Below, piece after piece: positions 11,789 through 30,219 of a stretch of DNA of 64,000 nucleotides. The stretch comes from Colwellia sp. Lineage in GTDB: Bacteria > Pseudomonadota > Gammaproteobacteria > Enterobacterales > Alteromonadaceae. Below the pieces are notes generated by a model that saw only the letters and a list, made by a program, of their open reading frames with translations, did no database searches and was not told the DNA's origin. The DNA lies in assembly GCA_016765685.1 (NCBI GenBank), contig JAESPR010000011.1:1-64000 (forward strand). The letters run 5' to 3'. Each line of letters opens with the position of its first letter. Position 1 is the stretch's first letter. Position numbers and translations under genes: made by a program.

Positions 11789-12787
11789 TCATCGGGTCAT
11801 TTTTTTGACAAATACAACAACAAATAAGGCGATGGTAAAACTACCGGTAAAAGCTTCTATTGCAGCAATAGTTCTAGATACACCTACCGGTGTTATGTCT
11901 CCATAACCAAGAGTGGTAAAAGTGACCACCGAAAAGTACAATGAGGATAAAAAAGCTGATAGATTTTCGCTAAAATCCTGTGGAGTAGAGACGCTAATCA
12001 TGTCACCTTGATAGCTTAACCCTGTAAACGAATATAAGATGGCGCAAATGATAATAATACATAAAGATAAACCAATAATACGCAATGGTGCTTCGCCATA
12101 ACCACAGAAAAGATCAACCAGTTTAGATAAAAGCCTCTTAGTGCTATAACGAGGTAATTGTAAGCGCCGCATGGTTAATTCTTTATGAATAAAAAAACCC
12201 GATAAAGTGAAAATACCTTCTTGCTCGGCATGCTTACGCAAATCCCGGTAAATTTCTTCCGCTTGTTGCAAATAATCGTGAGATTCTTGTTTATTACCAA
12301 CTTTAATTGCTTGCTTGGCATCCATTTCTTGGCGTATTTTTTTGCCTATTTTTATATTCTCAAACTTACAACCCTGCCACTTTGCCCCAAGTAAATTGGT
12401 ATTTAGCAAACTAGCACAGTTGAGGTTTGCGCCACGTAAATCAGCTTTCATTATGCTGGCATGGTTAAAGTTTATGTTGAATAAGTGGGCATCTGTTAGC
12501 TCAGCATGATAAAAGTCAGCATGTGAAAAATCATAGCCATTTTTTTTATGGTGATTAACTAAATCAATATTATGCAAGTTGGCTCTCTTTAAATAAATGC
12601 CCCTTAACAGGCCACCATTTTTTGCATAAAGTTCTAACTTTTCTTTAATCTCATCGCCCGTTTTATCCAAGGTTTTATCATGCCAAAAGCAAAAAGTAGA
12701 GTCATTAGCCTCTTCTTGACAACAAAAAGATTGCTGTGGTGAATTCATCGGATCTTTATATTGGCATAGGGGCTTTATTTCGTGCAT
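11789..12787 (-). CDS. Pentapeptide-repeat protein fused to a two-TM K+ channel domain
   Basis: A(D/N)LxxA repeats (ANLHNIDL, ADLRGANLNCASLLNTNLLGA) and selectivity filter TTLGYGDITP. Confidence 0.9.
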   Translation of the reverse strand: MHEIKPLCQYKDPMNSPQQSFCCQEEANDSTFCFWHDKTLDKTGDEIKEKLELYAKNGGLLRGIYLKRANLHNIDLVNHHKKNGYDFSHADFYHAELTDAHLFNINFNHASIMKADLRGANLNCASLLNTNLLGAKWQGCKFENIKIGKKIRQEMDAKQAIKVGNKQESHDYLQQAEEIYRDLRKHAEQEGIFTLSGFFIHKELTMRRLQLPRYSTKRLLSKLVDLFCGYGEAPLRIIGLSLCIIIICAILYSFTGLSYQGDMISVSTPQDFSENLSAFLSSLYFSVVTFTTLGYGDITPVGVSRTIAAIEAFTGSFTIALFVVVFVKKMTR

Positions 12788-13495: not shown

Positions 13496-14449
13496 TTACA
13501 ATACAATGATAACGCTAATATTTCGTAATAGTCCCTTTTTGATAAAATGAGCTAACTTGTTTGAATTCTTCTCCGATAAGGATATTTCAGTTGCTTGATC
13601 TTGCCAAGTTTTATTTGCTTTGATTAATAAAGGATATTCACCAATTAAAGGATGTTCCATGGCAAAGTTAATATTATTAGAAAACAGTGAGACTAATTGA
13701 CCATTATTGATAATATCTTGAGTATTATCGCGACTTGGATAAAGAATGTCACCGTTAGCTTTACGAATTTTTGGCGTTAATGACGGCATAAAGTGAGTAC
13801 CTCTCACATCAATAACAATACCTGAAATATCATTTAATTGAATCTCATTAACTTTATTGGTTGTTAAATGCTTTTCTAACACACTAATACGTTTGTCTAA
13901 CTCCGCTATTTTTTCAACAACCTGTTGAGTATTTGAAGTGTTTAATGTCGCAGCATGAGCCGTACTGATCCAATTAGACCAAAACGAATTTAACAGGCTC
14001 GTTGATAACTCTTCTGAATATAAATTTTGATAAATAGATTTAGAGGTTTTGCCACGAAGAGGTGCTTGCAATTCTATTTTACAGGAGCCATCAAGACGGT
14101 TATTTCGACTTTTAATAATGGCACCTTTTATCGTTCCTTCAACACTCGATTTTATCACGTCACTGGTGAGCATATAATTACTAACCAGTGTGGTTGTTGT
14201 CACCCTAACGCCTTGGAAAGATTCTAACAAGTTACGTTGTGCATCTACTATAGCCGCACGACATGCTAGAAATGGTGCTACGTTGGGGTTTTTATCTGGT
14301 GGTGCAACACCATAACCTATCGCTGATACAGAGGCGTCTGTCCAATTGATCTGGCCACTTGTGCCAACAAACTCAGTAAGGTGCCCATCCTTCGCTAATA
14401 CATTTAATGAGCATAAAATAAAAAGGCTTGCTGTTAATGTTTTGTTCAT
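13496..14449 (-). CDS. Secreted LPP20/FlgP-like domain protein
   Basis: Signal peptide; CRAAIVDAQRNLLESFQGVRVTTTTLVSNYMLTSDVIKSSVEGTIKGAII aligns with ORFs at 20199 and 22638. Confidence 0.75.
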   Translation of the reverse strand: MNKTLTASLFILCSLNVLAKDGHLTEFVGTSGQINWTDASVSAIGYGVAPPDKNPNVAPFLACRAAIVDAQRNLLESFQGVRVTTTTLVSNYMLTSDVIKSSVEGTIKGAIIKSRNNRLDGSCKIELQAPLRGKTSKSIYQNLYSEELSTSLLNSFWSNWISTAHAATLNTSNTQQVVEKIAELDKRISVLEKHLTTNKVNEIQLNDISGIVIDVRGTHFMPSLTPKIRKANGDILYPSRDNTQDIINNGQLVSLFSNNINFAMEHPLIGEYPLLIKANKTWQDQATEISLSEKNSNKLAHFIKKGLLRNISVIIVL

Positions 14450-14463
14450 TTCTTTCTACCTAT

Positions 14464-16347
14464 TTAATTAGCTTTGCTTGCACCGAGGATGGCTTTGACT
14501 GCACTTTTGTCAAAATTCACCTTGTTAGTGATAACAGCAAATGCCGATGAATTTTGAATGTGAAAAGGTTTGTTATTATTAAAATCACAGTTCTCAAGTG
14601 TTAACCTAGAACGTCCTGAAAGTACAATAGCACTGGTAGTACTTCCAGATAACTGACAATGATTTAACTTAACAATGGCATTACCATTGATTGTTAGTGC
14701 TGAATATTTAGCATTGTGGGAATACAAATAGTCAAAATTTGGCTTGCCAGCATTTATTTCAATGCCGATTCCTGCGTTCTCAATTAATAAACCATTAATT
14801 TCAACTGTTTGATTGCCATTCAAAATAAGGAATTTTTTTGCTGGGGATAATAACGATCGATTATTAAATCGAATGTTTTGCGCTGACTTTTTAGTATCAC
14901 CCCAAAAATAAGCTTGGCCATTTACTGTCATGCTAGTTGCTTGCTGAAACTTTACATTAACACCTGGCTCTATCAGTAAAGTAGAGTCATTGGTAAATAG
15001 GGTGCTTTTATTAATGATGTAAGGGCTATTGTCTTTACTCAAAACGTTCACCCCTGAATAACTACCAGCAAGTAAACTGCCAAGTTCTTTAGGGTAAGTA
15101 AGTTTGATAGGGTAAGTTTTTGCTATAATGTTTGTTGGCGTACTTTGGTTATTCGCTCTGTCATTAGCCGTTATGCTAAATTCGAATTTTTCAAACGCTT
15201 TAAACTTTCCTGAAAAGTTAATTTCATTATTGGTAGTTTCTTTTACTATGGGTGCTAAATTATTATTGGGTGATTGCATGCGCACAATGTAAGTAACTTG
15301 TTCTATTTTGTTTGGCTGCCAAGAAAGTTTTATTTCGTTAGTTGTCGCAAAATTAATTTCTAAACCAGTAATATTACTAGGCTCTTGGTTGTCAAAGTTT
15401 ACTAGGCCGGTAGTGCTTAACATATTGCCTATTTGGCCTTTGTTATCAATTAATTTTCCGGTAATAACTTTTTGACTGCCATTCCAACGTTTGTCTACAC
15501 GAATACTGCCTTGATAAAAACCAGCTTCTTTTTCTTCTAAATCAAAAGTACCTATACTTTCTACATCAATAAGCGCTCTTAAACCTGTTTGTCCTTTTAT
15601 GCCAACGGCGAGAGTATCACCATATTTTAGCCATTTATTGGCGCCATCATGAATAACCATATCAATTATTGGTTTGTTACTCCCTCTAAAACCAATAGGC
15701 TCGGGGATGTCTTCAGCAATGGCTCGTCCTAATTCATCCGCCGCAGCAAGTAAGTTTTTGTTTTCTAAATGTAAAGCAGATAATGCTGCATTGAACAATA
15801 ACCCCCATGCAGTGGTTGATATACCTCCGGCTCTAGACGTGATCGTTTGATTTTTTTGCCATAAAATATCACCTTCCTTTGATAGTAGTTTAAGGTCGAC
15901 ACCTAATTTTATGTGTGCATAAATACCTGCATAAAACCTTTCATATTCAGTAACCTCGCCGGTTAAGATGCCATCGACACCTAAATTTTGTGCTAATTGT
16001 TGTGGAGACAAATCATTGTTTGGGTTTTTTAAATCGACTTCTTTGCTGTGCACTAGCTGAAAATTTTTGTTAGACAAATGACTTTGTAAGATAGCTCTAA
16101 GTACAATGGGGGCTTCATTGTCCGTGGTATTGTTGGTTAATTTAGTAATGGCTATAACGTGTGGTATATCCGCGTTATTTAGCTGTTTTTGTTTACCTGA
16201 GGTTATCTCTTCGATTGAGCGGATCGGCTTTGTTATAGCAATAACTCCTTTTTTACTAATCGAACAACTTGTTAATAATACAGCTAACATCACTACCGCT
16301 AATATTTTAGTTTTAATGCTGTTCACGAGCTTCTCCTTTGGGTTCAA
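14464..16347 (-). CDS. Lipoprotein with DUF799/GNA1162-like N-terminus, FN3-like middle and parallel beta-helix-like C-terminus
   Basis: Lipobox LLTSC; IAITKLTNN...LVHSKEVD...LAQNLGVDGILTGEVTEYERFYAGIY; LEINFATTNEIKLSWQPNK; C-terminal short beta-repeat region. Confidence 0.72.
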   Translation of the reverse strand: MNPKEKLVNSIKTKILAVVMLAVLLTSCSISKKGVIAITKPIRSIEEITSGKQKQLNNADIPHVIAITKLTNNTTDNEAPIVLRAILQSHLSNKNFQLVHSKEVDLKNPNNDLSPQQLAQNLGVDGILTGEVTEYERFYAGIYAHIKLGVDLKLLSKEGDILWQKNQTITSRAGGISTTAWGLLFNAALSALHLENKNLLAAADELGRAIAEDIPEPIGFRGSNKPIIDMVIHDGANKWLKYGDTLAVGIKGQTGLRALIDVESIGTFDLEEKEAGFYQGSIRVDKRWNGSQKVITGKLIDNKGQIGNMLSTTGLVNFDNQEPSNITGLEINFATTNEIKLSWQPNKIEQVTYIVRMQSPNNNLAPIVKETTNNEINFSGKFKAFEKFEFSITANDRANNQSTPTNIIAKTYPIKLTYPKELGSLLAGSYSGVNVLSKDNSPYIINKSTLFTNDSTLLIEPGVNVKFQQATSMTVNGQAYFWGDTKKSAQNIRFNNRSLLSPAKKFLILNGNQTVEINGLLIENAGIGIEINAGKPNFDYLYSHNAKYSALTINGNAIVKLNHCQLSGSTTSAIVLSGRSRLTLENCDFNNNKPFHIQNSSAFAVITNKVNFDKSAVKAILGASKAN

Positions 16348-17311
16348 GCTTGAGTAATTCCTGTAATGATTCTTTATTGTAGTAGGGGATGTTTATCTCA
16401 TCACTCACGGCTATTGGTCGATTTTTTTCCCCACCCAGATACCATAAACCTTGTAATTGCTTCGTTAATAATTCAATTTCTAATAAAGTATGATTCATTT
16501 TCTCAAACGTTTCTGGAAGCTTAGTCATGCTTGGTTGTACTTTTTTACTAAGCTGTTGTAACTCTAACATTAACTGATTAGATGACATGATAAGCTCCTT
16601 AGATTCCGTTAACCGTTGTTCTAATAAACTAAATATGGGTGTCGTTTTTTTATCTATATTAGCTAAAAAACTATTAAAATTTGTTAGTGTTGCGGGTAAT
16701 TGCTGAGATGATTGTTTTAATGAGTTTGTTAGTTGATTTGAATTAGATAAAATTTGATTTATGTCGGTTTCTTTGTTGGCTAAATTAGCTGAGATTTTTT
16801 CAAAATTATCAATTACCAATCCTATTTTTTGTGATATTTCTACTAGGTTTAACTCATCGGTAAAATCAGACAGTGTTGTCGGTTCAATGGTAACTATGTT
16901 CGCTCCGTTGGTTAAAAGCTCTTTAGCCTTGCCCGGGCTAAATATTACTCCTTTGCCCACTAATAAAGTATCAAAACCAAATTGTGAATCAATTTTCAAG
17001 GTACTATCTACACGGTATAATTTTTGATATTTTGACGGTAGGCTTATGGTAACCCTTACTTTTCCTGAAATAAGTAATTCAATATTTGTGATTTCACCAA
17101 TAGTTACTCCCGACAGTGTTACGGGTGAGCCAACATTAATGCCATAACTTTGGCTCAGCTCAGTGGTTAAATTAACCTGCTTGCTAAAAGCGGTTAAGTC
17201 ACTTTTAAGCGAGCTTAAATAGATCAATGCTGCAATAGCAAAGATGATAAAAAAACCAACCGCTTTTTCTTGAGGTGATGTTTTAAATGATTGTGGTAAT
17301 GCAAAGCTCAT
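16313..17311 (-). CDS. MCE/MlaD family protein
   Basis: Single N-terminal TM then YGINVGSPVTLSGVTIGEITNIEL, FGFDTLLVGKGVIFSPGKA. Confidence 0.88.
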   Translation of the reverse strand: MSFALPQSFKTSPQEKAVGFFIIFAIAALIYLSSLKSDLTAFSKQVNLTTELSQSYGINVGSPVTLSGVTIGEITNIELLISGKVRVTISLPSKYQKLYRVDSTLKIDSQFGFDTLLVGKGVIFSPGKAKELLTNGANIVTIEPTTLSDFTDELNLVEISQKIGLVIDNFEKISANLANKETDINQILSNSNQLTNSLKQSSQQLPATLTNFNSFLANIDKKTTPIFSLLEQRLTESKELIMSSNQLMLELQQLSKKVQPSMTKLPETFEKMNHTLLEIELLTKQLQGLWYLGGEKNRPIAVSDEINIPYYNKESLQELLKLEPKGEAREQH

Positions 17312-17968
17312 CTAGTAGGCCATTAAGTTTTTATTGAGTATTTGATATCTTTGATCGGCAAAGTCATTACGATCTCCAGCAGTCACGGTCATAATTAAAC
17401 TGCAGTCATTTTTTTCGATATACTCGGCTAACTTTCTCATTAACATATCGCGAATTTGATCTGACATGCCGGACTGTATTTCGTCTAATAATAAAATTTT
17501 GGGTTTGATTACTAATAATCTTAGCAGGTTTGCTAAACGAGACTGAACATCATTGAGTTGAAACGGGTATTTGTTGAGAATATGACTCAGTGAAAACTGT
17601 TCGGCAGCGGCTAGAATTCTATTGGTAATGCTTTCATCATCTAAATTACTGTGAAAAATTAAAGGTAATTTACAATTACCTAATACCGTGTACATAGATA
17701 ATAGGCCTTCACTTTCGAATTGCATGCCTATAAATTTAAACAGATCAGTATTACTAAAATATTTACTAGGTTGATTTTCATATAACAATTCACCACTATT
17801 AGCGGTTAGAGTGCTATTACAAAGTTTTAAAAAACTTGTGCCACCATCAAGTACGCCTGTTTTTATGGTTGTTATTTGTTTTTCGGCAAGGGTGAAGTTT
17901 AAACACTCAAATACTATGGTGTCACCAAAGGTCAAATTGACATTCTTTAGTGTTAATAAGTTGTTCAT
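17312..17968 (-). CDS. ABC transporter ATP-binding-like protein (MlaF position) with degenerate catalytic motifs
   Basis: ABC fold with KILLLDEIQSGM Walker B; Walker A position reads GVLDGGTS; located between MlaE-like and MlaD-like genes. Confidence 0.8.
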   Translation of the reverse strand: MNNLLTLKNVNLTFGDTIVFECLNFTLAEKQITTIKTGVLDGGTSFLKLCNSTLTANSGELLYENQPSKYFSNTDLFKFIGMQFESEGLLSMYTVLGNCKLPLIFHSNLDDESITNRILAAAEQFSLSHILNKYPFQLNDVQSRLANLLRLLVIKPKILLLDEIQSGMSDQIRDMLMRKLAEYIEKNDCSLIMTVTAGDRNDFADQRYQILNKNLMAY

Positions 17969-18762
17969 CGGTAAGCCACCATAGAGAACACTATGTTGAT
18001 GGTAAATAAAATAATTAACTGGCTTGTCGTTGAGCTTGAAATTGATTGAGAGATGCTAGCAAACTTTTTTTCAACAGACATGCCATAGTAGATACAAGCT
18101 AAGCCGATAAAAACTCCAGCTAACAATGCTTTTGAGATACTAATAAGTGCTTCGGTAAAAGAAATTTGCTCTATAATTGATCGAATAAAACTATCTAAAC
18201 TAACGACTTGATTTTGTAATAGTGAAATAAATAACCATGAAGATAACATGCATACTAAATCAAAATAGAAAAACATCAGTAGTAGTGAAAGTGGAAAAGC
18301 ATAAAATACCGGTAACATTAATAAAAATACTGGGTTGATACGCAATGATTGCAATACTTCTAATTGTTGATGTTGGCGTAAGTAACCAATTTCGGCGGTA
18401 ACAGCGCTCGCAGAACGTGCCACTAAAATCACACCAGAGATTAATGGACCAATTTCCCGAATAATTACAATGACAAATAACTTTGCATAATAGTTTATAA
18501 AGTGCTCAGTATCGCCTAAAAGTGAATAAGCAAGCGACATCATTAATATACCGACTAAAATAGCAATGATAGTATTTACATAGATCGCTTTTATGCCAGT
18601 ATTATAGAGTTGTCTTATGAATAGTTGCCAAAATAATGAGAACCTATTTTTTGAAAGCAGTACACGGGAAGTACGAAGTGACTTGGTGAAAAGTCCCAAT
18701 AAGTCAGCAAACATGGTAAAATGTTTAGTCACAACATGACCAAGCTTACCGAGTAATTCCAT
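17965..18762 (-). CDS. MlaE-like ABC permease
   Basis: IVIIREIGPLISGVILVARSASAVTAEIGYLR; multiple TM segments. Confidence 0.88.
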   Translation of the reverse strand: MELLGKLGHVVTKHFTMFADLLGLFTKSLRTSRVLLSKNRFSLFWQLFIRQLYNTGIKAIYVNTIIAILVGILMMSLAYSLLGDTEHFINYYAKLFVIVIIREIGPLISGVILVARSASAVTAEIGYLRQHQQLEVLQSLRINPVFLLMLPVFYAFPLSLLLMFFYFDLVCMLSSWLFISLLQNQVVSLDSFIRSIIEQISFTEALISISKALLAGVFIGLACIYYGMSVEKKFASISQSISSSTTSQLIILFTINIVFSMVAYR

Positions 18763-19498
18763 GCACCTTTCCCCAGTTTATCGCAAATTCAAGTTTGTTG
18801 TTTGCGTTAGCCAAATCATAATAAAGTATTGCTTCATGAAAATAGTTGGAAGCTTTTGAATGGTTTTGATTAGATAAAATAATTTTCGCACTTAAAAGTA
18901 AAACGTCGCCAAGTTTTTGCCAGTTTTTGTTTTGGAGAAAAATTGCTTGGGCTTGATGAAGTAAAGCAATGTCGCTCTCAAGTTTTCCTTTTAAAAACAA
19001 TGCTTGTGCATAGTGCTTTGGATAGTTAATCAACTCACTTAACTGTGGGTTAGTTAATGGTATGTCTTGTAATGTTTTTAAGATAAGTTGCTGAGCTGTG
19101 CTTTTCGCATATCGTTGGCTTTGTTGGAGCCAATATGAGCTTTTATTGAAGGCATAACTAGTGGCTGCCGCTTCAAATAAAATGTCGTCATTATTACTTT
19201 GTTTAGCGCTAGACCACATGAGTGTGCAGTAATTGTTTGGATTATTTATAGTATGCAAACATAACCATTGATAGCCTAAAAAAACCTTTTGCCAATGTTG
19301 TTCTTGTACCAACTGTTTGGTAAGCAAGTGAATTTTACTAGTGTTCATATGAGTGGTGTTCACTAACGTTTGTAGCAATTCTTGTTCAATCGTTGTTGTT
19401 TTATCTGAGACTTGACTGGAGCTACAAGCAGATAAAAAAACACTCAACATATAGCAGAGATGTTTTTTTTTATTTGAATTAACCATTCTTTTTAACAT
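18746..19498 (-). CDS. Lipoprotein, probable helical repeat (TPR-like)
   Basis: Lipobox VFLSAC; alpha-helical repeat-like sequence; overlaps neighbouring genes. Confidence 0.65.
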   Translation of the reverse strand: MLKRMVNSNKKKHLCYMLSVFLSACSSSQVSDKTTTIEQELLQTLVNTTHMNTSKIHLLTKQLVQEQHWQKVFLGYQWLCLHTINNPNNYCTLMWSSAKQSNNDDILFEAAATSYAFNKSSYWLQQSQRYAKSTAQQLILKTLQDIPLTNPQLSELINYPKHYAQALFLKGKLESDIALLHQAQAIFLQNKNWQKLGDVLLLSAKIILSNQNHSKASNYFHEAILYYDLANANNKLEFAINWGKVHGITR

Positions 19499-20189
19499 CT
19501 TGCAAAATCATCCGCTTTAAAATTTGAAAATTATCTTCAGTATTCACATATAAAGATAAAATGTGTATAGCCTCTTCTGTGTTTTTATGTTGCAACATAA
19601 AATTTATACTATTTCTTAGTGGTCTTAAGGCATTATGCGCTATTTGAATTTCGAGCAAATCGGTAAAGTCATCATAGTCTCCTTGTCTAAACAATAGCTT
19701 AGATTTACGAGAAAATCGCCAACCACTAAACTTAATTAAATAGCGATTTAATACAGAGGCGAATAAAAAAGCCAATGCCATCGCGACAAGATCGCCTATT
19801 TTATCGAAAGATATTTCTTTAAATTGCGTGGTGTTTTCACTAACTGATGCCGTATTTGTTGCTCTAATGACTTCAATGTAACTTTTGGCAACAGTGTTTA
19901 AAGGGTTAATGCGTAATGCTTGCCGAAATTTATTTTCGGCTTTAATAATTTGTTTGTTCTCATACAGTGCTTGCCCATATAAAGAAAATAACACATCAGT
20001 ATTAGGATATTGCTTGGTCGCTTGTGCCAAATAAGAAATAGCATCAATAAATTCACCATTGTCGATTTGAATTTGTGCTCTAACAATGGCTACTTTTTGG
20101 CTGTCTATTTTTGCTGCAAGAACTTCTACACTATGACTAAAACTAGTAGTGCAGATAACAACCAATAAGATGGAAATAAAATTTTTCAT
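19479..20189 (-). CDS. TPR protein with signal peptide and an internal TM segment
   Basis: TPR NGEFIDAISYLAQATKQYPNTDVLFSLYGQALYENKQIIKAENKFRQALRINPLN; TM IGDLVAMALAFLFASVLNRYLI. Confidence 0.75.
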   Translation of the reverse strand: MKNFISILLVVICTTSFSHSVEVLAAKIDSQKVAIVRAQIQIDNGEFIDAISYLAQATKQYPNTDVLFSLYGQALYENKQIIKAENKFRQALRINPLNTVAKSYIEVIRATNTASVSENTTQFKEISFDKIGDLVAMALAFLFASVLNRYLIKFSGWRFSRKSKLLFRQGDYDDFTDLLEIQIAHNALRPLRNSINFMLQHKNTEEAIHILSLYVNTEDNFQILKRMILQDVKKNG

Positions 20190-20198
20190 TCGTTATAA

Positions 20199-21266
20199 CT
20201 ATTGAGCAATAACGATCATCACACTAGCTTTATCTAGCGTGTTAGCGAAATAAATATTGTTTTTAATAAATAAAGCGACTTCATCAGAAACAACAAGATC
20301 AGAGTGTCTAGACTTATATGTGCCTATGGCTTTTACAACGTAGGGTGTATAGGCAATACGTTTGTTTTCTATGGCATCATTAACATCAAAATCATAGGAT
20401 ACAGGGCGTTTTCTAAATGCATTGCTAGTGAGCATCTCAGGGGTCGGATAAATTACTTTGCCATCACTTGTGCGTAATCTAGGTATAGTTGCCAATTCAA
20501 ATTGGTCAATAGCTTGAGCATCAATTAATAAACCAGAATATTGCGAGGTGTTTTCAAAACTGGCGATTTTAGCACTAATATATTTTAATGATTCATCCTT
20601 GGAAAGCTGGCTAACTTTACTTTGAATATCTCGTAATATAGAGACGGTTTCTGTCGTTCCAGGGAGTGTTGCCGCGTGTACTTTATTGACCATTAGAGAG
20701 TTGACCATTAGAGAGTTGAACATTAGCGAGTTGATAAAAAATGAGTTTAGTAAGCTTGAAAATTTATTCGCTAGATCAGGATCTAAAAAAATATTGCTTA
20801 GAACGTTATTGTCAGGCAGATGGTTTAAACCAAATTTATTAGCTGCTTTATTTGAGACAGTTTCAATAAAAGAACCATCCATTTTTACCTCGATAATAAC
20901 TTGAGCTATTTCATTTTGATAAATATCTTTGGTGATTAACGCGCCTTTAATGATGGCATTCAACTTAGTGCGTATAATATCTGACGTTGCTTCTAAATCT
21001 TCAACAATTGTTTCTGAATTAATTCTAACACCAGAAATGATTTCGGCTAAATTTCTATAGGCATCTACTTGTGCTGCTCTACGTGCTAACAAGCGTTTTT
21101 TACGATTTGGAGTATTATCTGAAGCAACGCCATAACCACTAGCAAAAACAGTACCTTTTGACCAGTTAATGCCTCCGGTTTCACTGCCTTGAATAACATC
21201 ACCTGCTAATGCAATACTGTTGCCGACGAGTAAAGTTAAAATGAATACCACGAGCTGTTTAAGCAT
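20199..21266 (-). CDS. Secreted LPP20/FlgP-like domain protein
   Basis: LLARRAAQVDAYRNLAEIISGVRINSETIVEDLEATSDIIRTKLNAIIKGALI. Confidence 0.78.
   Translation of the reverse strand: MLKQLVVFILTLLVGNSIALAGDVIQGSETGGINWSKGTVFASGYGVASDNTPNRKKRLLARRAAQVDAYRNLAEIISGVRINSETIVEDLEATSDIIRTKLNAIIKGALITKDIYQNEIAQVIIEVKMDGSFIETVSNKAANKFGLNHLPDNNVLSNIFLDPDLANKFSSLLNSFFINSLMFNSLMVNSLMVNKVHAATLPGTTETVSILRDIQSKVSQLSKDESLKYISAKIASFENTSQYSGLLIDAQAIDQFELATIPRLRTSDGKVIYPTPEMLTSNAFRKRPVSYDFDVNDAIENKRIAYTPYVVKAIGTYKSRHSDLVVSDEVALFIKNNIYFANTLDKASVMIVIAQ
20686..20730. repeat. Three tandem 15-bp units (TTGACCATTAGAGAG) inside a CDS
   Basis: TTGACCATTAGAGAG / TTGACCATTAGAGAG / TTGAACATTAGCGAG; encodes repeats of NSLMV/F on the minus strand. 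Confidence 0.95.
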
Positions 21267-21268
21267 GA

Positions 21269-22663
21269 TTATATTTCCTTTATTGCGTTATCAAAGTGTA
21301 GGTATTTAGCCCGGCGAGCAACTATTTTTTTGAGATAATTTCGGGTTTCTTCTGCGGGCAGGTTAGTAAGTAAAAATTGATAGACTTGTTGGGAAGTCAT
21401 AGTATTAATTTTTTTGGCCGCTTTAGTTAAGTTTTTTTGTCCAGTAAAGGTTTTAGCTAAATTGCCTACGCCAGTATTATAACTTGATACCGCGCAATAA
21501 AAGCGTGAGCGAGGATCTTTGATTTTGCGTAAATAGCGACTTTTTAATAATTTGAAATATGCGGTGCCAAGTTGTAAATTATTAGTTTCGTCAAACAAAT
21601 AATCAGGAGAAACTATTTTCTTTTTACCATACACATAATGATGGGCATCCACACCTGCAGTTTTTGGCACTAATTGCATTAAACCAAAAGCGGGTACCCT
21701 AGAAATAGCTCGGGGGTTGTAGCTCGACTCTGTTTCTATAATGGCTAAAATCACCGAAATAGGCACATCATATTTGATTGAAAATCTCTTAACATCGTCA
21801 AAATTATTCGCTAGCAATACTTTTTGGTAGTTATTAACAAATTTCACTGTCATTTTCAAAACAGAATGATGCGGTTTTTCAATTAATTCCAATTTAATTT
21901 GTGGGTTTGATGAGGCAAGTTTTTCCTCCTTGCTTTCCGTTTTTTTGTCTACTAATGAGTGTGGTTTAGCCAAAGAATTAATTGCAACAACCGTGTTTTC
22001 TTGTGTGGTAACCAAAACTTTACTTGAAGGATGTAAGTTTTTTTGTGTCACTATTGTGGTGACTAAAGCTAGTTCACTTACCTTAGCATTGGTTACTTTT
22101 AATACCTCAACTTTTGGTAATAATTGTTTTAATATATTATTCTTTGCTGTTTTCTTATGCTTAGGTTTAATTCCTTGTTGGCCGAGCTTTTCTTTAAATG
22201 ATTGAGATAAAATATCTAGTTTTTCTATTGACGCGGTAGTTGATGAGCTTATTTGCTCTGCCATAACATTAATTTCTTGTTTAGCCAGATTTAGATTATT
22301 GTTCTCAACTTTGCTTTCAATGACCAACGTCCCTTCTTCAAAATTAACTATTGTACGTGTTTGTAAGTTTTTGCTGTAACCAACCCAGGTGCTTTTGGTG
22401 GGTAATTTCACGCTTTTAGGCCATTGTACTTTTATTTTTTTAGTTACTCCTTTGTAGGCATCATCAATGGCCTTTTCATAAGCATGATACAAACTATCAA
22501 TGTCAGCAGTTTTTTGCTTAAACTGTTGGTCTAACATGCGATCTATATCATCAAAGTTTTGTTCAGACGGCGCTGTAGCAAAGATTGGATTAATCACCAA
22601 TAAAAAATTAACTGTTACTAACAGGGCTAGCCATAAGTTATTGTTTTTCACTGGCGCTTTCAC
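21269..22663 (-). CDS. MltC-like lytic transglycosylase (DUF3393-like N-terminus + SLT domain)
   Basis: SLT motif ILAIIETESSYNPRAISRVPAFGLMQLVPKTAG; N-terminal IKVQWPKSVKLPTKSTWVGYS. Confidence 0.88.
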   Translation of the reverse strand: MKAPVKNNNLWLALLVTVNFLLVINPIFATAPSEQNFDDIDRMLDQQFKQKTADIDSLYHAYEKAIDDAYKGVTKKIKVQWPKSVKLPTKSTWVGYSKNLQTRTIVNFEEGTLVIESKVENNNLNLAKQEINVMAEQISSSTTASIEKLDILSQSFKEKLGQQGIKPKHKKTAKNNILKQLLPKVEVLKVTNAKVSELALVTTIVTQKNLHPSSKVLVTTQENTVVAINSLAKPHSLVDKKTESKEEKLASSNPQIKLELIEKPHHSVLKMTVKFVNNYQKVLLANNFDDVKRFSIKYDVPISVILAIIETESSYNPRAISRVPAFGLMQLVPKTAGVDAHHYVYGKKKIVSPDYLFDETNNLQLGTAYFKLLKSRYLRKIKDPRSRFYCAVSSYNTGVGNLAKTFTGQKNLTKAAKKINTMTSQQVYQFLLTNLPAEETRNYLKKIVARRAKYLHFDNAIKEI

Positions 22664-23090
22664 TTATTCGTTTTATTGAATCTCTATTACGGCAAATTTC
22701 AGACTCATTTGTTAAACAAATCGCTAAAGTCACTTCGGCAACAAAGGTATCATCTTCAGGTTTAATGATTTCTTTTATAACAAAGGCTCCTTTTAACAAA
22801 CCCTTTACTCTCGTGGCAATCACATCACTGGTCACTTCAAAGTCTTCCACTGTTGTTCCTGCACTTATTTGCAAGCCTTTTGTGGTTTCCGCTAACTGCC
22901 TTTGAGCATCAAGTTCAGCTGCGCGTCTTGCCATCATTTTTGCTTGAAAATTGCTTGAGGTATTTTCCATATTAACCGTACCAAAACCTTTGGCGGTTAA
23001 TATGCCTTGCTGATTTTCTGCCTGCGCGGGCATAAGTACAAAGTTCATCAGTAATATGAATACATTAGGGTAAAGAGTTATTTTGCTCAT
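22638..23090 (-). CDS. LPP20/FlgP-like domain protein
   Basis: MMARRAAELDAQRQLAETTKGLQISAGTTVEDFEVTSDVIATRVKGLLKGAFVI. Confidence 0.82.
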   Translation of the reverse strand: MSKITLYPNVFILLMNFVLMPAQAENQQGILTAKGFGTVNMENTSSNFQAKMMARRAAELDAQRQLAETTKGLQISAGTTVEDFEVTSDVIATRVKGLLKGAFVIKEIIKPEDDTFVAEVTLAICLTNESEICRNRDSIKRISESASEKQ

Positions 23091-23253
23091 AAATAGATTT
23101 CCTTATAACTTGAACTTGTTTCGAGAATTAAATTAATTAATATTTTTTAATAACTTGTTTAAATATTATCCTATAATTGAGAAAAGTGTAGAAAATGTAA
23201 CATTTTATTTGATAAACCTAGGGTCAAAAATTTATTGGTTATATTTTCATTAA

Positions 23254-24336
23254 TTGAAAAGGGACGTTATGTTAGAAAAAAATATTCCCATCAGCCAACT
23301 AATCATAGTTGTCTTTTTGGTAACATGCTTTGGTTTAACCAATGTACAAGCGAAAATTGTTACCGCTAAAGGTATCAGTGATGTTGTTGACGGAAAAAAA
23401 GCTAAAACTCGCTCTATCGCATTGAATAGTGCTAAACGAGCCGCCGTTGAACAAGTTGCGGGCGCTTTTGTACAGTCTCGCACGTCAGTTAATGATTTTA
23501 CTTTTGCTCAAGACAAAATTTACAGTACATCGTCAGGAAATATATCTTCTTATACCGTCTTATCGGAAGGGATTAATAATTTCGGTGCTTATGAAGTTGA
23601 AATCGAAGCTGACGTTGATGTTCAAGAATTGTTGATGGACATTAAAAGCATTTTAAAAGTAAATGGTTGGAGCAGAAAGCCTCGCGTTACTGTAGACGTT
23701 CACTCTAACAATGCGAGTATCGGTAATGTTTTAAAATCTTTATTTACCTCCAAATTAAATCGTAACGGTTTCGAAGTGTTTGATGAGTCCAAAAAAGTAC
23801 AGGCAGGTTTTGTATTAGGGATTAATGCTGACTTTCTTACCTCGACCAGCGACTACCAAGGTGTGAGTATCGCCTCAAATAGCCTATCTATCGTAACTAA
23901 TATAACCCGAACCGATGACGGTCAAGTGATTGCGAGCATATCTTTTGAAGACTCAAAAGCAGGCAGCAATTTAGCGAAAGTTAAACAGACTTTAGCTAAA
24001 AAATTAGTGAATAAAGCTTGGCGAAATTTGAAAACTAAAATTTTAGATTTTTGGCAAGAAGAACAATATGTTGCTCGCTCTGTTTATTTAGAGTTAGAAC
24101 AGGTTGAAAATTATCAGCAAGCACAAGCATTCTCTCAGTCTTTAAAACAGAGTGTTTCAGGACTGTTAGATGTTGAATTAATTAAATATAATCAGCAAAA
24201 AAGTCAATTTTTACTAAAATATAAAGGTTGGCCGGAACAACTGCATGACGAAATTTTTGCAGGTCCGCTGAAAATTGACTATAAATTAGAATTAGTTAGC
24301 GTTAATGCAAGCCATGTTATCTTAAAAATAAATTAG
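23254..24336 (+). CDS. FlgT-N/LPP20-like secreted protein
   Basis: Signal peptide; IVTAKGISDVVDGKKAKTRSIALNSAKRAAVEQVAGAFVQSRTSVNDF...GAYEVEIEADVDVQELLMD. Confidence 0.72.
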   Translation: MKRDVMLEKNIPISQLIIVVFLVTCFGLTNVQAKIVTAKGISDVVDGKKAKTRSIALNSAKRAAVEQVAGAFVQSRTSVNDFTFAQDKIYSTSSGNISSYTVLSEGINNFGAYEVEIEADVDVQELLMDIKSILKVNGWSRKPRVTVDVHSNNASIGNVLKSLFTSKLNRNGFEVFDESKKVQAGFVLGINADFLTSTSDYQGVSIASNSLSIVTNITRTDDGQVIASISFEDSKAGSNLAKVKQTLAKKLVNKAWRNLKTKILDFWQEEQYVARSVYLELEQVENYQQAQAFSQSLKQSVSGLLDVELIKYNQQKSQFLLKYKGWPEQLHDEIFAGPLKIDYKLELVSVNASHVILKIN

Positions 24337-24344
24337 GGAAGGTC

Positions 24345-26354
24345 ATGTTAAATAAAAAAGTACTGATTATGTCTATGGCACTCAGCATTCTATCCGCCTG
24401 TGGTAGTACGACTAAAAAAGAGAATAACAATAAAGAATTTGATATTTCTCAGCAATTAATGGCGTCGCATAAGTATACTGAAGCCGTGGCATATTTAGAA
24501 AGAGCGGTAAATAAAAGCCCTCAAAACAAACAATATCAAGCTATGTTAGCAGAAGCGCGCCAAAAATCGGTCACGCAATTAGTGAGTAAAATTAATAAAA
24601 CGTTAACGACTGAAAGTTTAACCAAAGCAACAATTGACAAGGCTAATTTATTGTTAAGTAAGGCTAAAACCATTTTATCTCAACATGCTTCTTATATGGA
24701 CATTGAAGATAAAATAACAACAAAGCAAAATTCCCTGCAAACTAAAGTAAAAGCTTTATATAAAAATACGCAACAAAACATGGCGAGCCAAGAATGGATA
24801 AAAGCTAAGTTTTCTATTAAAAAATTAATTAAAATTTTTCCTAATTATGAAGATACAGCACAACTTACGCAAAAAATAAAAATTGCAGGTGGGCGATTTT
24901 ATCTAAATCAAGCACAAGATGCTTATAAAAGTAATGACTTCTTCAAAACATTAGAGTTTTCTCGCAAAGCGCTCACTATTAATAGTCAAAATAAAAAGGC
25001 AAAAGAGTTAATTGCCCTAACGAATAAAAAAAATAACAAAGAATATTTTATTGGCATTGCACAGGCCGCGGTACCAAAACGAGATTGGTCAACAGTTTAT
25101 AATAGCTGTACAACAGCACTTCATTATGACGCAAAGAATGTTTTTTGTTTAGAGCAACTGATAAAAGCTAAAAGTAACTGGACAGCGGCACTATTAAGTC
25201 AGTCTAGAAAATTAATGAATCAAGGTTATTACGGCAAAAGTGTTGCAACATATAAACAAGCCGTAGTGGTGAATGATGCCGGAAAAAACAATTCACTTGT
25301 TGCATTAAAAACTTCCCTTTCAGAAAAAATTGATGGCAAAGCTGAAGAGTTAACGGAACGAGGAAAGTTTGGCTCTGCTTGGAGTTTATTAACCATGATT
25401 AATGAGTTTAATCCTAATTATGTTGATCTTTTTCAAAAAATTAAAGAACTTGAAGATGCAATAACCGTGAGAATTAGAAAACAAATAGCTGTTTTTGATT
25501 TTAAAAGCCCTTCTTATAGTAAAGATGCCGGTATATTGGTTGCCAATAATTTGATTGCTAATTTATTTAATAGTGCATCTAAAGACATCATTATTCTTGA
25601 ACGTGAAAACCTAAAATCAATTTTAGAGGAAATGAAGCTTGGCCAAATAGGGGTTGTATCAGAATCTAGCGCACAAGAAATGGGACGTCTTTATGGTATA
25701 GATATGGCAATTATGGGTAGTGTGTTGTTGTATAAAGTAGACTCTAGCGAGTCTATTAGTTCTAAAACAGTACGCTACAGCGTTGGTGAAGAAATATCTG
25801 ACAATATTGAATACTTAAATTGGCAAGCGGTAAACCCTAGAGCATCAAAAAAAGAATTAAAACAAGCCCCTCCCGCTAAAATTATGGTGCCTAAATTCGA
25901 AGAAAAAGAATATGTGGTTAAAAATGTGAAAAAAGTTGGTTTTTTTCAACTCTCATTCAGAATTGTAGATTTTGCTACCGGTACTAATACTCGAGTGGAA
26001 ACTATTGAACGTAAAAAAGTTGCGGAAGATAACGCCAATGAAGGAATTAAGGATGCTAATGTTATCTTTGACCCTTTAACTATTCCTACTGATACTGAAC
26101 TATTACAACAAATGACTACCGAAGTAGTAGAAGAGCTCTCACGAGAAGTATTGCAACCGTTACGTAATCTTGAGAAAAAATATTTTGAACAAGGAGAAAC
26201 GTTATTCTTGCGTCGTAAAGAGAACTTAAATGCCGTTGAATCATTTGTTAATGCTATTTTTGATGAAAAATTAAAATCAATTGTCAATTCTCCAATAACA
26301 GTTCAATCAAATAAGTATTTACAAACAATTATGAATAATCACTCTTTTAAATAA
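24345..26354 (+). CDS. Lipoprotein with N-terminal TPR-like repeats and C-terminal CsgG-like domain
   Basis: Lipobox LSAC; IAVFDFKSPSYSKDAGILVANNLIANLF...IIILERENLKSILEEMKLGQIGV...GRLYGIDMAIMGSV. Confidence 0.85.
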   Translation: MLNKKVLIMSMALSILSACGSTTKKENNNKEFDISQQLMASHKYTEAVAYLERAVNKSPQNKQYQAMLAEARQKSVTQLVSKINKTLTTESLTKATIDKANLLLSKAKTILSQHASYMDIEDKITTKQNSLQTKVKALYKNTQQNMASQEWIKAKFSIKKLIKIFPNYEDTAQLTQKIKIAGGRFYLNQAQDAYKSNDFFKTLEFSRKALTINSQNKKAKELIALTNKKNNKEYFIGIAQAAVPKRDWSTVYNSCTTALHYDAKNVFCLEQLIKAKSNWTAALLSQSRKLMNQGYYGKSVATYKQAVVVNDAGKNNSLVALKTSLSEKIDGKAEELTERGKFGSAWSLLTMINEFNPNYVDLFQKIKELEDAITVRIRKQIAVFDFKSPSYSKDAGILVANNLIANLFNSASKDIIILERENLKSILEEMKLGQIGVVSESSAQEMGRLYGIDMAIMGSVLLYKVDSSESISSKTVRYSVGEEISDNIEYLNWQAVNPRASKKELKQAPPAKIMVPKFEEKEYVVKNVKKVGFFQLSFRIVDFATGTNTRVETIERKKVAEDNANEGIKDANVIFDPLTIPTDTELLQQMTTEVVEELSREVLQPLRNLEKKYFEQGETLFLRRKENLNAVESFVNAIFDEKLKSIVNSPITVQSNKYLQTIMNNHSFK

Positions 26355-26370: not shown

Positions 26371-29190
26371 ATGGCGCTTTTATTAAGAATACTGATTGTT
26401 ATGAGTATACTGTTTTTTATTAATATTTTTGCAACAGCCGGGAATGTAAATTCAATTGCCTTGTTTAATTTAAGGCCCATTAGTATGGATGCCATTGGTG
26501 CCGATGCTGATTTACTTTATTCATTAGAAGTAGAGTTTGAAAAATCATCACAGTTATCGGTAATGTCTCGACGAGATATTGAAGCGGTATTGCATCGTAT
26601 AGGTGGGGCACAAGTGTCTGATACCAACTTAGTCATAGCTTACGGTCAAGAAATGGGGGTTGGCTTTATCTTAACGGGCGATGTTGATAAAACAGGCAGT
26701 TCGATGAAAGTTACCCTTAATTTAGTTGATATCATTGGCGAGCGTGTTGTTAATGTTTGGCATAAAAGCTATACCGGGCGTGGTGACGTATTACAAGGTT
26801 CCAAAGCTTTAGCAAAAGAAATCAAACAATCAATTTTAACTGCAGCACAAGCTAATATATCTTCGGTTAATAAAACGACTAACGAGTCTACCATTGAATA
26901 TTTAGATCATGTAACCGCGGTAGCTAAAGGTTCGGGTGTTTTTCTTAGTTGGACCATTAACGATAAGGTGTCTGTTTTTTATACTAATGTATATCGAGGT
27001 CAATCAGTTGATGGTTTATTTGAATTTGTCGCTAGCGTAGAAGAAACTCAATTTCAAGATGATATTCAAGGGGATGTGTTTTATCGTTTAGATTTAGTGT
27101 TAGATAATGGTAATGAAATTAAGGGTGAGCAAATAGTGAGTGCTAAAGCATCGACAAACCTTATTGATGTTACTTTATTGCCTCCTATCGTCTTAAGCTC
27201 TAAAAACTTGTTGCACGGTATCAAAATTGATTTAGTACCACAATTAAATAATCAAGGTGTGCTTGGTTATAATTTTTACCAAAAAGTAAATGATGATCAA
27301 TGGAAGAAAGTGCATTCAATCAATAAAACCGATCAATTAACATATTCCTTAGTTTTAAATAAAAATTTTATTTCTAATGCAAGTTATCAGCTTTATGTTA
27401 CTGCATATAGCGCATTGGGTGAGAGTGATCGTTCGGATACTTTATTGTTAACTATTCATCCAAGTTTACAGTTAAATGTTAATAAAGATAAAATTTTACG
27501 TAAAGCTGAGTTGTCTTGGAAGAGTGCAAAAACAGGTAAAGGTTATAAAATTTACCGTAGGGAAACAGATGACAGACCATGGCAACTAACTAAGGAAATA
27601 TTAGGTATTGATAGCTTATCATTTACGGATCAAAACAACTTAAAAGATGGCCAAGAGTATCAATACAGTATCACCGCTTTTGATGAGTTTACTGAGACAC
27701 TTAAATCTAAAACAGCTTTTGTAAAAACGAAAGACTTACCTCCGGCTCCAGAAAACCTTAAAGTACAGTCTGGTCTAGTTAAAACGGTGAAACTTACTTG
27801 GCAGGCAAGTGATGATCAAGATGTCAGTGGTTATGTTGTATTTCGCCAAGTAAGCTCTAAAAAATCAGAAGGTTTACTTGAAGAGGTTGCTTTTTTAGAA
27901 GGCTATCAAACACAAGAGTTCATCGATGGTTTAGGTGAAGTACCTTTACAAGATGGTGAAACCTATTTTTATGCTATTGCGGCTAAGAATTTATTTGGTA
28001 GCTTAGGTAAAGTTAGTTTAACTATAGAAACGCAAACCAAGCCCTTACCACAACAGCCTCAAAATTTTAAGGTAAGTAATGGGGAAAACACTATCACGTT
28101 ATCTTGGCAAGCAAACAACGAGATTGATATTGACTATTATGCATTATATCGCCGGTGGAATAGTGAACCTTGGCAGAAAATATCTGAATCAAAAAACACC
28201 CATTATCAAGATGATGACTTAAAGGTTTATGCAAAAACCCAATACAAAATTACGGCGACAGATAAATCAGGATTAATCAGTAAACCTTCTCAGGTAGAGT
28301 CAATAGATAGTCCGCTATCATTAACCTTAAGTGTTCAAAAAGAGTTTATGCCCAGAGCCATTACGCTCGCTTGGAATAAAGTCAAGTATATAAAAGGTTA
28401 TAAACTTTATCGTAAACAGCAAAATCAATCTCAATGGCAACTCATTAAAACTATCAAACAGGCCAAACAAAGTTCATTTAAAGACTTTGACCAGAAAAAA
28501 ATGCGAGAAGGTCAACAATATCAATATAAATTAACCGCGTTTGATAACGTTTTAGAAACAGTGTCATCAAACATAGTCTCTGGAACAACCCAAGCACAAC
28601 CGCTTGCACCTAGAAAGTTTTCGGCTCAAAGTAACCAAGTTAAAATGGTTACTTTAACTTGGGATAAAACGAGTGACTTGAGCGCTAAAGGTTATGTAAT
28701 CTATCAGGAAAATGATCAGGGTATTTACGAGGAAATTGAAAAAATTTCTAAAATAACCACCACAACATTTAAGGATGATGGTAGTTTTTTTTCGAACTTA
28801 AAAGATGGTACTAGCTATTCATATAAAATAACAACGTATAATCAATTTTCTGCAGAGGGACCCTTGTCTGATCTAGCTGAGGCTACAACTAAAGCTATCC
28901 CTAAAACTATTTCAGGTTTATCTATAGAACAAGATGCTAGTGGACTTATGCTTTTTTGGCAGCCGTTAATGGGCAAAGATATAAAACATTATCTAATTCA
29001 CCGTAGTAGTAATAGTTCATGTACAAGTTTGCGCAAGGTTGCCACGGTTAATAGTGCCGAGGATGTGTATTTAGATGCGGAAGTTAAAAGCGGAAAAAGT
29101 TATTGCTATCAAATAAGCGCTGTTGATAATGAGCAACTTGAAGGCAAACTCTCTCAGCGAGTTAATTTTACTATGCCAACCATAGAGTAG
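26371..29190 (+). CDS. Secreted CsgG/FlgO-like N-terminal domain followed by multiple FN3-like repeats
   Basis: SIALFNLRPI...QLSVMSRRDIEAVLHRIGGAQ...YGQEMGVGFILTGDVDK; repeated PPAPENLKVQSG...VKLTWQASDDQDVSGYVVFR. Confidence 0.82.
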   Translation: MALLLRILIVMSILFFINIFATAGNVNSIALFNLRPISMDAIGADADLLYSLEVEFEKSSQLSVMSRRDIEAVLHRIGGAQVSDTNLVIAYGQEMGVGFILTGDVDKTGSSMKVTLNLVDIIGERVVNVWHKSYTGRGDVLQGSKALAKEIKQSILTAAQANISSVNKTTNESTIEYLDHVTAVAKGSGVFLSWTINDKVSVFYTNVYRGQSVDGLFEFVASVEETQFQDDIQGDVFYRLDLVLDNGNEIKGEQIVSAKASTNLIDVTLLPPIVLSSKNLLHGIKIDLVPQLNNQGVLGYNFYQKVNDDQWKKVHSINKTDQLTYSLVLNKNFISNASYQLYVTAYSALGESDRSDTLLLTIHPSLQLNVNKDKILRKAELSWKSAKTGKGYKIYRRETDDRPWQLTKEILGIDSLSFTDQNNLKDGQEYQYSITAFDEFTETLKSKTAFVKTKDLPPAPENLKVQSGLVKTVKLTWQASDDQDVSGYVVFRQVSSKKSEGLLEEVAFLEGYQTQEFIDGLGEVPLQDGETYFYAIAAKNLFGSLGKVSLTIETQTKPLPQQPQNFKVSNGENTITLSWQANNEIDIDYYALYRRWNSEPWQKISESKNTHYQDDDLKVYAKTQYKITATDKSGLISKPSQVESIDSPLSLTLSVQKEFMPRAITLAWNKVKYIKGYKLYRKQQNQSQWQLIKTIKQAKQSSFKDFDQKKMREGQQYQYKLTAFDNVLETVSSNIVSGTTQAQPLAPRKFSAQSNQVKMVTLTWDKTSDLSAKGYVIYQENDQGIYEEIEKISKITTTTFKDDGSFFSNLKDGTSYSYKITTYNQFSAEGPLSDLAEATTKAIPKTISGLSIEQDASGLMLFWQPLMGKDIKHYLIHRSSNSSCTSLRKVATVNSAEDVYLDAEVKSGKSYCYQISAVDNEQLEGKLSQRVNFTMPTIE

Positions 29191-29604: not shown

Positions 29605-30219
29605 ATGAGTGAATTTCATACCATGTTAAGTGAATTTTTTTGCTTAAAAGAACAATCAACAAAATCAAAAATTGAAGAGGATATTTGGAAAAAATACGGT
29701 GTTCATGGTTATGTTATGCTCATGGACATGTCTGAATTTTCTTTAGTAACACAAAGGTATGGCATAGTTTATTACCTGTCAATGATTGAAAAAATGAAAG
29801 CCGTCGTGAGACCTATTATAGAGTCAAATTCAGGATCTTTGGTTAAGTATGTTGCTGATAATGTTTATGCTAGGTTTGACAATGCTAGTGATGCTATAGA
29901 TGCAGCGGTAGAAATTAATGAAACTTTAGATGCGATAAATAAATCAACCCCTGCTGAATGGGATATTTGTGTTGCTACAGGCATTGATTACGGTCGGTTT
30001 TTAAAAACAGAAGACGGTGATATTTTTGGTGATGCGGTAAATTGCGCTAGTAAATTTGGTGAAGATATAGCGCAAAGAAATGAAATTATTATCTCTAAAA
30101 GAGCTTTTGAACACATTGACAATCCTGGTAAGTATCAGGCAAAGTTTGTTCGCTTTAAGGTGTCAGGCATTTCTTTAGAGGCATATACTATTAAACCTTT
30201 ATTGGTTAACATTTGCTAA
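29605..30219 (+). CDS. Class III nucleotide (adenylate/guanylate) cyclase domain protein
   Basis: MLMDMSEFSLVTQRYG, LVKYVADNVYARFDNASDAIDAAVEI, DIFGDAVNCASKFGE. Confidence 0.85.
   Translation: MSEFHTMLSEFFCLKEQSTKSKIEEDIWKKYGVHGYVMLMDMSEFSLVTQRYGIVYYLSMIEKMKAVVRPIIESNSGSLVKYVADNVYARFDNASDAIDAAVEINETLDAINKSTPAEWDICVATGIDYGRFLKTEDGDIFGDAVNCASKFGEDIAQRNEIIISKRAFEHIDNPGKYQAKFVRFKVSGISLEAYTIKPLLVNIC

Follow-up and report, generated by a model that had tools for sequence, protein, structure and literature searches.

What becomes of a lipid transporter of the Mla kind when its ATPase subunit lacks almost all the residues that ATP hydrolysis requires? ATP hydrolysis by MlaF is regarded as essential for Mla transport. 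The question is raised by an operon in the window, a stretch of 64,000 nucleotides from a Colwellia sp. genome, in which the gene at the mlaF position encodes a protein without most of the usual catalytic motifs. A sequence-only reading had taken this protein for an adapted pseudo-ATPase rather than the product of a decaying gene.

The protein, here called pseudo-MlaF, is a true ABC ATPase domain of the MlaF type whose fold is retained. As had been read from the letters, its reading frame is intact: 218 amino acids follow from an ATG start with no interruption. It matches Pfam ABC_tran at 6.5e-9 (PF00005 is matched by all seven proteins of the family described below), and its profile matches among solved structures are headed by Acinetobacter MlaF (7d06). 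The AlphaFold model (pLDDT 88, pTM 0.85) finds E. coli MlaF (6xgy) as its best Foldseek match, at 1e-17. Against the NCBIfam equivalog for MlaF, PRK11831, the protein scores 59 bits and thus falls below the cut-off of 441 for MlaF orthologues. The family members are also shorter, with 217-224 residues as opposed to 243-295 in 30 canonical MlaF proteins. What is absent is the C-terminal extension of the dimer handshake, pseudo-MlaF ending about 25-75 residues before canonical MlaF does.

The motif register was established by an ungapped alignment of KITAIMGPSGIGKTTLLRL with QITTIKTGVLDGGTSFLKL, that is, of pseudo-MlaF with the MlaF of the same genome; it scored 32, with the runner-up register at 6. 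In this register the Walker lysine position is occupied by Gly43 (codon GGC, 17840-17842, minus strand). The earlier reading had replaced the invariant lysine by threonine (codon ACA, 17837-17839, minus strand) and was one residue off, as this codon encodes Thr44, at the Mg-binding Thr/Ser position of GK[ST]. Its other statements on the motifs are borne out: the canonical Walker A is lost, with TGVLDGGT in its place and no GxxxxGK[ST], hence no canonical P-loop, anywhere in the whole sequence; the signature is degenerate (QLNDVQSRL); the H-loop segment (MTVTAGD) is without His; and Walker B survives (ILLLDE). The residues it had listed as lost were only part of the total, since the Q-loop Gln (now Glu85) and the D-loop Asp (now Ser169) are gone too. 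The H-loop His aligns with Val195, the least certain part of the register, yet no His is present in the segment.

Table 1. Features of the locus, with positions in the window
Feature	Position	Strand	Basis or remark
LPP20-like protein, extended cluster	13496..14449	-	sub-threshold Pfam match
Probable lipoprotein, GNA1162-like with beta-helix region, extended cluster	14464..16347	-	GNA1162 match sub-threshold
MCE (MlaD-like) protein: one TM helix, one MCE domain, long C-terminal helices	16313..17311	-	PF02470, 6.1e-10
Pseudo-MlaF: ABC ATPase domain without Walker A Lys, Q-loop Gln, signature GG, D-loop Asp and H-loop His	17312..17968	-	
H-loop region TVTA, no His	17378..17389	-	alignment
Walker B LLLDE kept, Asp162 and Glu163	17480..17494	-	alignment
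Degenerate signature LNDVQS (MlaF: LSGGMA)	17540..17557	-	alignment
Glu85 at the Q-loop Gln position	17714..17716	-	alignment
Degenerate Walker A, residues 37-44, TGVLDGGT	17837..17860	-	ungapped alignment to own MlaF
MlaE-like permease	17965..18762	-	PF02405, 4.5e-37
TPR-like lipoprotein, fourth gene of the conserved core	18746..19498	-	lipobox SACSS read from sequence
TPR protein, probably membrane-anchored, extended cluster	19479..20189	-	
LPP20-like protein, extended cluster	20199..21266	-	sub-threshold Pfam match
MltC-like lytic transglycosylase, extended cluster	21269..22663	-	
LPP20-like protein, extended cluster	22638..23090	-	sub-threshold Pfam match
FlgT_N-like protein, extended cluster, divergent	23254..24336	+	sub-threshold
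TPR and CsgG-domain lipoprotein, extended cluster, divergent	24345..26354	+	

Whether such losses belong to one strain or to a family is decided by the relatives. When 84,980 species genomes were scanned with the permease, orthologous clusters turned up in two, the gammaproteobacterial MAG NORP105 (permease 73% and ATPase 55% identical to those of the window) and the isolate genome of Pseudoalteromonas denitrificans DSM 6059 (69% and 55%). Four more members, G730, G473, G613 and G662, came from three families in a class-wide sample of 369 genomes. The pseudo-MlaF family therefore comprises the window protein and six relatives in other Gammaproteobacteria, 23-55% identical to it; the bacteria that carry it are few, and come from marine and other environmental sources. 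Five weaker NBD matches (L058-L062, about 1e-29) were rejected as members: four have an intact Walker A and LSGGM, while L061 has an intact Walker A and ISGGQ.

None of the seven family members has the intact motifs, and the losses are common to all of them. The Walker lysine position holds Gly in five, Ala in one and Ser in one; the Q-loop position holds Glu in five and Arg in two; and the D-loop Asp is Ser or Pro throughout. The signature reads LNDVQ, LNDTQ, LNVTQ, LNIAQ or LSDVE, never with GG. At the aligned H-loop position His is missing from every member, although G473 and G613 carry one about three residues downstream. By comparison, GxxxxGK[ST] and LSGGM are both present in every one of the 30 MlaF proteins whose genes lie next to a canonical mlaE in the loci retrieved. 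What the family does retain is the Walker A Thr/Ser and the Walker B Asp (7/7), as well as the catalytic Glu in five members, Ala replacing it in G473 and G613.

Two explanations draw on these retained residues. In the first, pseudo-MlaF would still be an active ATPase with displaced catalytic residues and a lysine supplied from elsewhere. Walker B with its catalytic Glu in five members would suit it, but there is no conserved substitute Lys near the P-loop (residue 36 is K, E, K, T, N, N and K across the seven) and several other motif residues are missing as well, so that we regard it as very improbable. In the second, the protein would be a nucleotide sensor which binds nucleotide without hydrolysing it and gates the permease, in the manner of degenerate sites in other ABC proteins. 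Because the Thr/Ser and Asp are kept in all seven members and the Glu in most, binding of nucleotide by pseudo-MlaF is conceivable. However, the entire P-loop pattern GxxGxGK is lost and an Asp lies within the loop in five members, neither half of the nucleotide sandwich is intact with the signature GG and the Q-loop Gln gone, and two members have lost even the catalytic Glu. A sensor is accordingly unlikely in our judgement.

A more mundane explanation is that the gene is decaying, or that the window reflects a sequencing or binning error in one MAG. In favour of this, the window comes from a draft genome of 77% completeness, and 36 genomes of the same genus yielded no orthologue. Against this stand the identical losses in the P. 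denitrificans isolate genome and in five other assemblies, together with the fact that all frames are intact. For the closest pair, L044 and L045, the dN/dS of pseudo-MlaF is 0.085 at a dS of 1.46, next to 0.084 for the MCE gene and 0.051 for the permease gene; most other pairs were saturated at synonymous sites. Moreover, the best-kept part of the protein among its three closest members (window, NORP105 and P. denitrificans) is precisely the altered catalytic segments: 62 of the 72 residues in the five motif segments are invariant (86%) as against 37 of the other 146 (25%), and when the mask was rotated through all 218 positions only the true one attained 62/72. This concentration of invariance and the low dN/dS of about 0.09 argue for selection, strongly purifying in the altered segments, rather than decay, and the view of the protein as an adapted pseudo-ATPase has thus gained from the comparison; decay or error is extremely unlikely. 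We infer from the sequences that the protein is catalytically inert, and the pattern of conservation suggests that the altered surface may have taken on a new role, e.g. in a nucleotide-free dimer or in contact with the permease.

In a maximum-likelihood tree, all seven pseudo-MlaF proteins fall on one side of a branch with 100/100 support, for which the tool gave a long-branch warning; the topology would be compatible with a single origin. The distribution is sparse and patchy, since no member was found in the 36 same-genus genomes and none besides the window in samples of 395 genomes of the order and 399 of the phylum. Horizontal transfer could account for it, as could repeated loss. No relative was found among the viral contigs searched, and on the plasmids searched the sole matches were distant, canonical MlaE proteins with about 25-29% identity. 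A probable IS4-type transposase gene, read from sequence, adjoins the cluster in NORP105 (L033:15599-16894), which would fit a mobile cluster.

Pseudo-MlaF is encoded within an operon. Its gene abuts that of the MCE protein and shares four bases with the permease gene, and a TPR-like lipoprotein lies upstream of the permease in six of the seven genomes; these six have the order lipoprotein, permease, pseudo-MlaF, MCE. In the seventh, G662, pseudo-MlaF and MCE are adjacent with the permease on a separate contig (L042:4906-5691 and L064:2734-3387). No NBD gene lies alongside the permease of G662, whose permease, pseudo-MlaF and MCE genes are all intact. One operon thus holds an MlaE-family permease, an MCE protein and an MlaF-like NBD, as in MlaEFD-type systems. 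It is not of the PqiABC/LetAB type, which is marked by a PqiA/LetA protein and no NBD; here the permease is of the MlaE family and an NBD gene is present. The permease is better conserved than pseudo-MlaF and retains its coupling segment. Its sequence HQQLEVL had been held to depart from a usual EEIDAL, but at that site most of the canonical MlaE proteins in these genomes have TEQLSSL; EEIDAL is not what is usual here, and the argument from the permease is therefore weak. The predicted needle of the MCE protein rests on secondary structure and homology, as the AlphaFold model is of low confidence outside the MCE domain, including the helical part. A conserved LTxxLxxHWLLGG-like motif stands at the end of the family's MCE proteins; in the window protein it reads LWYLGG (within residues about 282-293).

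Could the missing catalysis be supplied by another protein? An active ATPase such as canonical MlaF might pair with pseudo-MlaF or power the permease in trans, as MceG does for several Mce systems. ABC exporters commonly pair a degenerate with an active NBD, and candidates for such a partner are at hand: an intact mlaFEDC operon lies on a different contig of the window genome (L001), and canonical MlaF, 61-68% identical to that of the window genome, was found in four of the six other genomes (P. denitrificans, G730, G473 and G613). However, the canonical MlaF of the window genome is encoded next to its own mlaE, and each composite site of a hybrid dimer would miss either the Walker A or the signature half. 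Pseudo-MlaF also has no C-terminal extension, which is required for the function of E. coli MlaF (PMC7367683). Furthermore, the assemblies of G662 (90% complete) and NORP105 show no canonical MlaF, their best matches being below 38% identity and PstB-like in G662. A trans-acting MlaF would be possible for this permease but not general, and subunit exchange of either kind seems to us distinctly improbable.

On balance we favour, as probable though by no means certain, a paralogous MCE lipid transporter of the MlaEFD type in which the MlaF subunit has turned into a conserved structural pseudo-ATPase, and which works without ATP hydrolysis or is driven in some other way. In E. coli, neither the K47A nor the E170Q variant of MlaF complements (PMC7367683), and for this reason we would not expect ATP-driven transport of the Mla kind from pseudo-MlaF. 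The protein would still use its Q-loop and helical region to dock on the MlaE-like permease, which it would hold as a scaffold without hydrolysing ATP. Lipid would then pass, passively or by an outside force, through the MCE ring and along the long helical needle across the periplasm, in the ATP-free manner proposed for the Pqi and Let bridges, which function without an ATPase domain (PMC12436622). The TPR lipoprotein may form or place the outer-membrane end. One caution comes from M. tuberculosis, where the Mce complexes lose stability when MceG carries Walker B mutations (PMC9947336), so that an NBD with a purely structural part to play should not be taken for granted in the superfamily. A bolder proposal, which we advance tentatively and would not yet call probable, is that of an ABC-derived lipid transporter family with no ATP hydrolysis at all, in which the whole NBD dimer would clamp the permease as a fixed structural element and which would represent an evolutionary step between Mla and Pqi/Let.

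Twelve genes (13496-26354) are collinear in the window, NORP105 and P. denitrificans, and in the lineage of the window their LPP20-, CsgG- and MltC-like products may also help to form or place the outer-membrane end. The cluster is similar to portions of the outer-membrane assemblies FlgO/P/T and CsgG. A search for the TPR-CsgG partner across 248 genomes of the order found it in the window only. Adjoining the cluster, 26371-29190 encodes a secreted protein of 939 residues with several fn3 domains and an N-terminal part that is CsgG-like by eye. A small protein with an adenylate/guanylate cyclase domain (29605-30219; PF00211, 4.7e-5) lies at the cluster edge, and 11789-12787 encodes a pentapeptide-repeat protein fused with an ion-channel domain.

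How does this system compare with those already described? With Mla (MlaFEDB(C/A) of E. coli and relatives) it has in common an MlaE-like permease, an NBD of MlaF fold and an MCE protein in one operon. It differs in the loss of the ATPase motifs and of the MlaF C-terminal extension, in showing no MlaB- or MlaC-like gene in the window cluster, and in its long helical MCE protein and TPR lipoprotein. The simplified core of permease, NBD and long helical MCE protein is reminiscent of the minimal MlaEFD of Veillonella with its long MlaD (PMC10665443) and of Brucella Mpc (PMC12436622), and Mpc likewise includes an outer-membrane lipoprotein, although MpcA is PqiC-like rather than TPR-like. In both of these, however, the NBD is described as conserved, whereas here it is degenerate. 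PqiABC and LetAB (YebST) are MCE conduits too, in which the inner-membrane part lacks an ATPase domain (PMC12436622), and the working mode proposed here is the same, but their membrane protein is PqiA/LetA rather than MlaE-like and they have no NBD whatever. Mycobacterial Mce1 and Mce4 combine MlaE-like permeases with needle-forming MCE proteins and an NBD that is not necessarily dedicated; their shared MceG has canonical motifs (PMC9947336), in contrast to the dedicated degenerate NBD of this operon. In ABC exporters such as TAP, MRP1 and CFTR, which have one degenerate site, an NBD likewise lacks catalytic residues in a conserved way, but there one site stays active, while the only NBD of this operon has lost both site halves. 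No earlier report of a degenerate MlaF was found in the open-licence papers searched. Judged from its genes, this is an operon of the MlaEFD type with a conserved, predicted pseudo-ATPase as its sole NBD.

The direction of lipid flow through MCE systems is under debate. A natural transporter of the Mla type with a conserved loss of its motor would make it testable whether an MlaE-type permease and an MCE tunnel can move lipid without ATP. The same system also poses the question of what an NBD does beyond hydrolysis, and it would link ATP-driven Mla to the ATPase-free Pqi and Let bridges.
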